A stretch of 64,000 bases of DNA, taken from NCBI GenBank assembly GCA_024734495.1, contig JALMQS010000102.1:10511140-10575139 (forward strand), in the 5' to 3' direction. The notes under the pieces are model-generated. The model searched no databases. It was not told the DNA's origin and was given only the letters and a program-made list of their open reading frames with translations. Numbering within the stretch: the first letter of the stretch is position 1; the number at the start of each line of letters is the position of its first letter. Positions 22,001 through 25,400 of the stretch are shown here, in pieces. Position numbers and translations under genes: made by a program. This DNA is from Forficula auricularia. Lineage: Eukaryota; Arthropoda; Insecta; Dermaptera; Forficulidae.

Positions 22001-22399
22001 GTCAATTTAAATCTTAGATCTTGGTAGATATCTATATGTTTTTAGTATATGTCAGAAGGGTAATTTAAATATAATTTTTTTTTAGGCTGGCCAAAAATAC
22101 ATTTGCAAGTGTATCATTTGGATTCTTATGGTCGGACAGAACTGTATGGATATGGTTTTTGCCACATTCCTACCTCGCCAGGGAATCATCGATTGGACTG
22201 TGTGACTTGGCGACCTGTTGGCTCATTCAAGGATCTCTTCACGCAATATTTTCTTGGTGGTGGAATTCAACTGAAATCCCCGGATTTGATTTACTCCGGT
22301 TCTGACCGATATCGCCTTCAAACCCAGACAATGGGCGTTGTACATTTAGACATTAATATAATTTTAAAAAATTTCGCCAAGTTTGGTGTAGAAAATTAA
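19013..22399 (+). CDS. B9D2: B9 domain-containing protein 2, 2 exons, 175 aa
   Basis: Exon 1 is 19013-19226 and exon 2 is 22086-22399; the intron begins GTCTTT and ends TTTAG, splitting a glycine codon (phase 1). The 175-aa product has exactly the length of vertebrate B9D2. B9D2 is a core subunit of the MKS/B9 complex at the ciliary transition zone, where it gates entry of membrane proteins into cilia. Recognised segments are MAEVHILGQLVSASEF, SLFCKWGIHAGGGW, AREGQTQVD, YWCHPIDIHFATKGIQGWP, GYGFCHIPTSPG, the TWRPVGS block and the terminal HLDINIILKNFAKFGVEN. A C2-like B9 fold spans the whole protein. The next gene, tectonic, starts 7 nt after the stop; both act in the same complex, so one transcript may serve both. 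The intron carries a reverse-oriented LINE, a palindromic repeat and a truncated LINE insertion. Confidence 0.95.
19529..20568 (-). mobile_element. 5'-truncated LINE (jockey/CR1 type) with poly-A tail, in B9D2 intron
   Basis: Read on the minus strand: THCYADDSTLHGKPSLPNNR has the RT catalytic YADD, then LVNFNSNKTQCCLISRRENR, SMLGVSVASDLSWNEHISSV, IYKAQIRPCLEYGSHLWRGA and the terminal MTSRNWNSLPASIFPSTYDL, typical of CR1/jockey-like RT C-termini. One frameshift lies at about 20100-20110. The element ends in an A tail (T run at 19530-19549 on the plus strand). It is cut at the 5' end near 20568 and sits inside another repeat whose parts flank it (19270-19440 and 20560-20690). Confidence 0.88.
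20700..21030. repeat. Palindrome carrying two hammerhead-like motifs
   Basis: Near-perfect inverted repeat centred close to 20858, with arms containing ATCATATCAT-like centre, GACTCCATGAAAAACATT and TATAGTCTCAAACAAATAAA. The outermost arms read ACATATATATCGAGATG and its inverse. Each arm holds a CTGATGATGAAGACCAAG...GAAACTATAGTC core. A single arm of the same family recurs at 57550-57740. Confidence 0.8.
20771..20815 (-). ncRNA. Hammerhead-ribozyme-like motif in the palindrome
   Basis: Minus strand: CTGATGA (20809-20803), one extra T, perfect stem GAAGAC/GTCTTC with CAA loop, GAA, then ACTATAGT followed by C. ACTA/TAGT is self-complementary and would be stem III without a loop, so a dimer may be needed for activity. 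Core folds exactly as a hammerhead apart from the extra base after CTGATGA. Confidence 0.45.
21240..21978 (+). repeat. CCATACAGGG repeat, copy 2, split by a LINE insertion
   Basis: Left piece 21240-21393 (CTCGTCCACAAAAATTTGG to GAAATGCCATGA) and right piece from 21851 (ATGCCATGATTTCGCTC to TACCCTGTATGGTAAAGTA). The duplicated ATGCCATGA marks the LINE insertion between them. Confidence 0.8.
21394..21849 (+). mobile_element. 5'-truncated LINE insertion with target-site duplication
   Basis: The coding remnant CGCDHLSLNGDINHIYLGCN resembles the C-terminal Cys/His zinc-binding region of R1/jockey/I-type LINE proteins, ending LAIGPLTKYD and a stop. After two A-rich stretches it ends in poly-A at 21838-21850. 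AAATGCCATGA at 21383-21393 is repeated as ATGCCATGA after the A tail, the target duplication. Confidence 0.75.
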
Positions 22400-22406
22400 T
22401 TCTACA

Positions 22407-25400
22407 ATGAAATTCTCTTATTTCTTTCTTTATTATTCACTTTGAATATTTCGAATAGTCACTCTCAACTCTGTTACAATGAAACTTGTGAAACGGTAGA
22501 GAATACTACAGAATATATTTTGAGTGATCTGGTGAATATTACAACATTACAAGATTTAAATGAAACAGAAACTGAAGAAACAACTGAAGTGGATTTGACA
22601 ACACTCAAAGCAATAACAACGACCACGATCGCTTCTACAACAGCTTTAGCAGCGACAACCAAACAGCCCAACATAGTGAAATCGCATTCGGAAGAATCCC
22701 TACGGGAGATTGACAATATATGCACCTGCGATTATTATGTAATTACTTCATTTAAATATTTATCTAGTTCTAATAATACAAACTTAAAATAATGTTAAAT
22801 AATTCCTAATAAATAGAGACCGGATTTCTATGCAATTGCATATTTTGTTTGCCGCCACATACGACCCAGGGGATCAATTATCTATCCGAATCATGCATCT
22901 AGGATACAGTGGGTTAAATTTTATACTGCATATTTGAGTCATTTATTGCATAAAATTGCATATTTGTAGAATTTTTGTCAAATATTGCCTATTTCCTAAT
23001 ACAGATATTTTAAAAGTAAATTTTCGGAGAAGGAATGAAAAAAATTAAGAAATATATATATATATAAGTTCCTTTAAATTTGCCCCTATTAGATCTGAGG
23101 ATGTGGAGCGCTCCTTTTCATCGTATAAATCAATTTTAAGTGACCGTAGACATAATAACCTGAAGATAATTTAGAAAAATACTTGTAAACATAAATTATT
23201 CACAATTACAATCAAATTTTAATTATTTTTGAGATCCTTTGTTAATTATTTCTTTATTATTATCATTATTATTATTTTTTTAATGGCCTTCGGTAACTAT
23301 AGCCCATTTTGGCCATTGAGTGTTCGTGTGTGTGTGAAAGTGTGTGTAAATTAGAGTAGTGATCAGGATTATAGGCGGACAAATATTATTTTATTAGTTT
23401 TTTATTTGTACGTCAATAAGAAAAGCTCGTTAAAAAAATAAAAGCAATACAATACAATCGTGTCTGTGAAATAAAACTATCCGGTCTCTACTAATAACCA
23501 TGATTAATTAAAATTTTTCCCATTACAAAAATTCAGATATTAAAAGAAAATCATTCATTAATATTTTATTTACAGTACTATGGGTGGCAAAAGCCGGATT
23601 TTAAGCGGATAATTCGTCCCTCTCGATATTTATTTATTTGTTTTCCTTTTATTCATCACAAGTTGGGTATCAGCTGGAGAACGCATGACATGGTTTTAAT
23701 TTAAATCAAATTCCTGGGGGCCCGAAATATGTGGAAAGGAGTTTCGAAAAATATTATAATTGAATGTAATGTTCTATCAGTCCGTCTCTCTCCAGAGAAA
23801 ATTTCATTGCATTAAAATATTAGAATCCTAAGACAATATAAAAACCAAAAAAGCTTAAATTTAGCATGGAGGTTGGTTAAAATTATTTATGAATAATCCA
23901 AGGACCAAGAATATCTTCTATGGAAAAAAGTGAAAATATCGTCTCCGAAACAAGTTAACCACGAATTTTATAATAGGAAAACAAGGACAAAGTTTTTATG
24001 TGTGACTTTTTAATTTATCAGCTAACGTTTCAGTCGACTTTGCCGACTTCTTCATGGCTTCAAATATCTAAATTTTCTTGTTATCTTCGTTACCATTGAA
24101 GACCATCAGAAACACAAATTTCAACAAATATTTGGCACATTCATATAAACAATTTTTCTTTTCTTTTTTCTTTTGATCCTTACATAAAGAAATCGCAAAT
24201 TTAATGGAAGCCCTGAAGAAGTCAGCAAAGTCGACGAAACATCACACATAAAAACTTGACCTTATTTTCCCTTTTATAAACTTTCAAATTAATACAAATT
24301 ATGAACGGAAATGATAATAATAACGACGAAAGTTGAAATTTAGCAGAAAGAAAGCTCTTAACAAATTATTCACTGTAAACAGAAAATTCTAGAGGGGCTC
24401 CAAAATGAGGACTTTATAAAAAAAAAGCCAGACAGTTGAAATTTAGTAAAATAGCCTCCTTTTTCACAGTATGAATTCTCATTCAGAATTTAGAGGGGGC
24501 TCCAGAAAGGAAGTTAAAAAATAAATTAATAGTTTGAACCCCCTTGTACAAATGAGATTGAAATAGTAATATGAGCTGAGGATCGTTTGAATCCTCCGAG
24601 TGGCATAAGTAAAAAAAAAACAACAACATCTTTAAAATCAAAACTTTATAAATTATAAAATTGTTTTCCAGAAAAATTCATGTGACATCAATTGTTGCTG
24701 TGATCCAGATTGTTCATATTTTGAAAGGCAAATATTTAAGAAATGCCATGAAATTCCTACCTTCAACTTCGATAGCAGATATTGCTATCAATCACAGATT
24801 ATTTATTCAAATAATACGAAATATTTAATGATTAAAAATAATAACGGGTTGTTTTGTATAGTTAAGGATAATATCAAAAAACAATTGTTGTATCCTAATA
24901 GAGCGGTAAGTAAATATGCAATCGAAGCTTTGAAATATCAATAGGGCTAATTGAATACATTAAACAGTTTTTTGAAGACATCTTTTATTTCCATTCTTTT
25001 TACGTAGAGCTTTTCTTATTTTAATAGCACTAAAGACTTCACTGTTAAAATAAGCTGACGTGTTCTGATGTGGCCATCCACTTGACTTTACCATACAACC
25101 TGGTCCCTCACTTATATTCAATATTTAATAAAATTATTTATAATCAAGTAAGAGGGGGGGGGTTAGTTTTTGCATTTTTAGACTTATGTGGTCTCACTGA
25201 TTATGATGTATACAAAATTTGGTTGAGTTTGCTCAAATGCCCTAGATTTTTAATTTTTAACCCCCCTTCTACCCCCTTAATTTTGGGTTGATATGCACCA
25301 AAATCTAATCAGCTCTTAATCTCACTAGACTAAAACTAGGTGTGACATTTGGTTTCGATATTCACACTAGTTTTTGAGCTAGCTCGTCCACAAAAATTTG

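Follow-up and report, generated by a model that had tools for sequence, protein, structure and literature searches.

How is a gene expressed when its coding sequence appears to begin 7 nucleotides (nt) past the stop codon of its neighbour? The question is raised by B9D2 and tectonic, which code for two subunits of the MKS complex, both proteins of the ciliary gate, and follow each other on the plus strand of a 64,000-nt stretch of the Forficula auricularia genome (assembly GCA_024734495.1, contig JALMQS010000102.1, positions 10,511,140 to 10,575,139; this whole stretch is the window, and coordinates count from its first base). Judging from the sequence, we propose that the two are probably separate frames co-transcribed from one RFX-driven promoter, with tectonic translated by a restart at ATG 22407. 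The shared message is well supported because the gap measures 7 nt, a single perfect X-box (RFX site) stands upstream of B9D2, no standard polyadenylation signal lies between the genes, and nine gene models from other arthropods merge the same pair. The locus is likely to be best read as an old arthropod dicistronic pair.

B9D2 was assembled from two exons on the plus strand. The first (19013..19226) opens with ATG 19013, and the coding part of the last (22086..22399) ends in TAA 22397-22399. The spliced frame gives 175 residues and matches PF07162 at residues 4-164 with 208 bits, the B9-C2 domain covering most of the protein. Over its whole length the protein is 76% identical to B9D2 of Periplaneta americana. 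In a tree of 29 rows, consisting of the window sequence and 28 others hand-picked from the search matches, it fell among insect sequences, nearest to Periplaneta (a cockroach), a stick insect and thrips, with no supported sister group. No B9D2 relatives were found in viral contigs. The B9D2 intron also carries a fold-back element at 20663-21045, with nested inverted repeats of 58, 68 and 59 nt that are 93-99% complementary.

Tectonic lies downstream on the same strand as six exons that join in phase, free of internal stops, as far as 34772. Exon 1 (22400..22738, with a donor at 22739) is an open frame in the same physical exon as the end of B9D2; it is followed by exons 2 (24672..24905), 3 (26295..26454), 4 (28526..28731) and 5 (30198..30953), the last of these holding most of the PF07773 domain, and by a final exon (34512..34772) that codes for a hydrophobic C-terminus and ends in TGA 34770-34772. 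The joined protein matches PF07773 at 81.7 bits and PF25752 at 49 bits, which identifies it as a tectonic. A whole-protein search with it gave 7 matches, scoring being confined to the 7992 candidates with the most words in common; we suspect that the threonine-rich part of the protein filled this candidate list. The junction region has a single match in the assembly (845 contigs, 1.06 Gb), 653 bases at 100%, and no second copy was found there.

The B9D2 stop is followed after 7 nt by an ATG at 22407..22409 (+), the likely start codon of tectonic, and the B9D2 frame stays open from 22400 up to a TAA at 22790. The first-pass annotation had described this gap and a B9D2 frame free of stops from 22400 through 22738, and frame reading bore out both points; its further claim, that ATG 22407 is the first ATG of tectonic in the B9D2 frame, did not survive. 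By position modulo 3, B9D2 and tectonic are in frame 2 and ATG 22407 is in frame 0, where it reads MKFSYFFLYYSL and closes after 12 codons at TGA 22443. Within 22400-22738 the tectonic frame has no ATG, and as sequenced it has no in-frame start with a signal peptide; upstream of 22500 it offers the near-cognate codons ATT 22412, TTG 22442, ATT 22448 and ACG 22493.

An AAA run, 22410..22412 (+), is where the frame of the ATG separates from that of tectonic, by one base. One extra A at this position would run ATG 22407 into MKILLFLSLLFTLNISNSHS and then into QLCYNETC of the tectonic frame. MKILLFLSLLFTLNISNSHS, labelled a signal peptide by eye and not from predictor output, begins with a short charged segment, continues into a hydrophobic core whose highest 11-residue Kyte-Doolittle mean is 2.85, and closes on residues that resemble a cleavage site; the signal-peptide-like stretch covers 22412-22468 (+) in the first tectonic exon. 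When the bases of the 59-nt leader were shuffled, 588 of 20000 shuffles (about 3%) gave an equally joinable ATG, that is, one from which adding or removing a single base just after the ATG leads into the tectonic frame with a signal-like start. The frame break is likely to reflect a one-base gap in the A run, be it an assembly error or an allele. Tectonic would in that case lie out of the B9D2 frame and begin with its own signal peptide, and would not be a B9D2 fusion. The frame common to the two genes is probably accidental, because such agreement has a one-in-three chance anyway and because of the frame break.

If the sequence is instead correct as it stands, ribosomes could initiate at ATG 22407 and then shift one base backwards on the AAA, or could use a non-AUG start, for instance ATT 22412. 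Both routes are compatible with the letters, since a one-base backward step at the AAA joins the ATG to the tectonic frame and ATT 22412 is already in that frame. However, slippage as early as the second codon, and lacking the usual slippery heptamer, would, to our knowledge, be very unusual, and AUU is what we take to be a poor start codon; we consider this explanation very unlikely.

A start within a few bases of the upstream stop raises the question of where the message begins and ends. An X-box, GTTGCCTAGCAAC, is found at 18915..18927 (+), 85 nt before the B9D2 start codon, and makes B9D2 a predicted RFX target. It is the one perfect match to GTTGCCN{0,3}AGCAAC in the window, against 0.02 expected. 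Across the 1.06-Gb genome GTTGCCNAGCAAC has 249 matches (109 forward and 140 reverse), about one per 4.3 Mb, a frequency at which a match at most 100 nt before a given start would arise in roughly 1 of 40,000 cases. Between 19228 and 22407 no X-box-like site with at least 11 of 12 bases occurs on either strand, the best on the plus strand having 9 of 12. At the other end, the first-pass annotation had seen no room for a polyadenylation site between the genes, and indeed neither AATAAA nor ATTAAA is present in 22086-22738, while an AATAAA stands at 34821, past the tectonic stop.

Among the roughly 100 perfect X-boxes listed of the 249 genome-wide, a middle T is the prevailing form, and several sites occur in pairs separated by a few kb. 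The set may mark out ciliary genes, or it may consist of copies of a repeat.

Further evidence came from gene models of other species. A protein database was searched with an 826-residue joined query, admitting proteins of 0.55-1.75 times its length and scoring the B9D2 part alone. The 131 candidates yielded 17 over-long B9D2 models, nine of which contain a tectonic domain: those of Polyplax serrata, Nymphon striatum, Strigamia maritima, Apolygus lucorum, Abscondita terminalis, Homarus americanus, Trypoxylus dichotomus, Aquatica leii and Eretmocerus hayati. They span a sea spider, a centipede, a lobster and insects. The remaining eight comprise three Daktulosphaira vitifoliae models with a serine protease, two from fishes, one each from a flatworm and a rotifer, and one other record. 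Among over-long B9D2 models, tectonic is thus attached in nine of ten arthropod species versus none of the four named non-arthropods.

Where the models leave B9D2 is informative. The join falls at residue 149 (Apolygus), 145 (Abscondita), 139 (Trypoxylus), 114 (Aquatica) and 140 (Eretmocerus) of 175, and near residue 148 in Homarus, judged there by eye as the aligner ran on through the gap. Because six of the nine drop the end of B9D2, these six point to gene finders splicing round the stop between close neighbours and not to true fusions. In the Polyplax, Nymphon and Strigamia models B9D2 is retained more or less through to its end, a form in which the protein alone does not separate neighbour merging from fusion. 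Just past the join, the Homarus and Aquatica models show a methionine and then a hydrophobic leader; in none of the nine does such a leader come immediately behind a complete B9D2. Four tectonics without B9D2 (P0001-P0004, Armadillidium and Callosobruchus among them) have their own methionine and leader. Among the 120 B9D2 matches listed of 364, many insects have a separate 175-residue protein, which is neutral with respect to a shared message. The B9D2 protein P0027 grouped with the louse Polyplax in the tree, and its B9D2 ends at residue 175. P0027 and a second B9D2 protein, P0093, come from records of 3637 and 3621 bases, which if transcripts would be long enough for tectonic too.

These models bear directly on stop-codon read-through, in which some ribosomes would pass TAA 22397 and produce a B9D2-tectonic fusion with the leader as an internal membrane signal. 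Such a fusion would fit the frame that runs open, without an ATG, from 22400 into tectonic, as well as the three models that join a near-complete B9D2 to tectonic. In addition, abundant read-through has been inferred for insects and crustaceans, according to the portion of PMC5100048 drawn on here. In that same portion, however, most insect candidates have TGA, whereas the B9D2 stop is TAA followed by T, not the usual read-through context. The signal-peptide-like leader, proper to the start of a protein, sits right past the stop; six of the nine merged models hold no B9D2 residues after about 114-149 and so skip the stop; and the end of the P0027 protein at residue 175 argues in the same direction. 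Read-through is therefore extremely improbable in our view. The first-pass annotation had offered a shared mRNA or read-through as alternatives: the gap, the X-box, the missing polyadenylation signal and the nine merged models favour the former, while the TAA-T stop, the leader and the junctions of the merged models speak against the latter.

Several observations weigh against the shared message with restart and have to be set beside the evidence for it. In the sequence as it stands, ATG 22407 opens a frame other than that of tectonic. Eight ATGs precede it in the spliced message, among them the B9D2 start and that of a 13-codon upstream frame, MSDGRSAYSRPIS (19006-19047), which overlaps the B9D2 start in another frame. 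A reversed X-box control gave 17166 matches genome-wide (8556 + 8610) versus 249 for the motif itself; the control being far commoner, the X-box is rare rather than enriched. The database search detects merged models alone and is silent on arthropods in which the two genes are annotated apart. Inside the first tectonic exon, at 22525, lies an acceptor-like site whose score of 5.9 falls between the lowest and highest scores of the locus's own acceptors (2.5-13.1). Lastly, reinitiation after a long cellular open reading frame is described as presumably very rare (PMC5972666, in the part of that paper used here).

The acceptor-like site raises another explanation, a separate tectonic message. It would arise from an alternative first exon or promoter in the B9D2 intron, or from a splice that destroys B9D2, and would supply a leader with an ATG, spliced to an acceptor at about 22458 or 22524; the T-rich stretch at 22412-22440 would then be a polypyrimidine tract and not part of a signal peptide. 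Such a message would account for the absence of an in-frame ATG, and an AG at 22457-22458 does follow a pyrimidine-rich stretch. According to the sections of PMC4528330 used here, many dicistronic loci in FlyBase also produce alternative monocistronic transcripts, by downstream promoters or disrupting splices. On the other hand, acceptor 22459 scores 2.1, below all six acceptors of the locus scored by leave-one-out, and a scan of the intron (19228-22390) for leader exons that could splice to acceptors 22459 and 22525 gave one open candidate and none with a signal-like start. These scans are small; among 19 same-size stretches tiling the window, this region included, three offered such an exon (mean 0.16). 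As noted, X-box-like sites with at least 11 of 12 bases are absent from the intron. Overall, we regard a separate message as unlikely, though it carries more weight than slippage or read-through.

We therefore return to a dicistronic message with restart. Based on the arrangement of the locus, one RFX-driven promoter upstream of B9D2 would produce a single transcript holding both cistrons. Ribosomes would finish B9D2 and restart within a few bases at ATG 22407, either by retained ribosomal subunits or by another internal-initiation route, and tectonic would start with its own signal peptide, assuming that one base is missing from the A run. Through the common ciliary promoter, production of the two MKS-complex subunits would coincide in cells and in timing. 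The shared message is probably much older than this species. More tentatively, and as an idea that may well not hold, an operon-like B9D2-tectonic gene might date back to the ancestor shared by sea spiders, centipedes, crustaceans and insects and have persisted ever since, the restart giving a fixed ratio of the two subunits of the ciliary-gate complex from one RFX-controlled mRNA.

Should the pair stay together across arthropod classes, it would provide a natural test case for coupled translation. Mutants or knock-downs of B9D2 in arthropods may then affect tectonic as well, and the repeated merging of B9D2 and tectonic by automated annotation would be accounted for.

Other elements were also recognised in the window. 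A frame at 3638-4345 (+) is retroelement-like, with a reverse transcriptase match (PF00078, 39.6 bits), and a second such frame lies at 19644-20574 (-), of which 19647-20180 resembles the end of a reverse transcriptase without a Pfam match. Two Mariner-type transposase frames match PF01359, at 41767-42663 (+) with 90.3 bits and at 50558-51247 (-) with 28.1 bits. A tetratricopeptide-repeat frame at 2267-2920 (-) matches PF13424 with 66.9 bits and is presumably TTC19-like.

The same two genes may have been met before in the fly, under one name. Human NP_085055 and C. elegans Y38F2AL.2 are both, we take it, B9D2, and Drosophila melanogaster CG9227 was presumably later split into B9d2 and tctn. 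In the part of PMC2375033 drawn on here, CG9227 is treated as tectonic, yet it is counted among three fly B9-domain genes and paired with Y38F2AL.2 and NP_085055. Its X-box is listed at 119 bp upstream, and at 146 in a second Drosophila species, and expression of its reporter is completely absent in dRfx mutants. As far as these passages go, a single RFX-controlled locus under both names points to the same two genes lying together. That the fly transition zone loses both B9D2-GFP and Tectonic-GFP without MKS1 (PMC5087661, in the text used) fits their membership of one complex. In the open-access literature searched, PMC2375033 was the sole paper found on CG9227, and no paper was found on a shared B9D2-tectonic message or on CG42731, alone or with CG42730.

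Compared with known systems, the arrangement is familiar in kind. The sections of PMC4528330 used here report 159 dicistronic pairs for the fruit fly in FlyBase, with stop-to-start distances of -34 to 319 nt at loci that have polycistronic transcripts only. The 7-nt gap falls within this range if ATG 22407 is the start, and the count softens the first-pass annotation's remark that such a joined pair would be unusual in an animal. One FlyBase pair, Mocs2/CG42503, likewise codes for two subunits of one enzyme and is described there as highly conserved. Stop-start reinitiation at influenza B M1/BM2 similarly places the second start at the stop of the preceding frame or very close to it, as far as the source consulted describes it, whereas B9D2 and tectonic are cellular genes with a 7-nt gap. 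Insect read-through genes share the open frame past the stop, but differ from the present locus in its TAA-T stop, in the leader signal at its junction, and in the six of nine merged models that skip the stop. Given the FlyBase pairs and their range of distances, the dicistronic architecture itself is already known. B9D2-tectonic differs from those pairs in that its shared transcript is a prediction from genomic sequence, and in its repeated appearance in merged models across arthropod classes. What is unusual is such recurrence in a pair from one complex.

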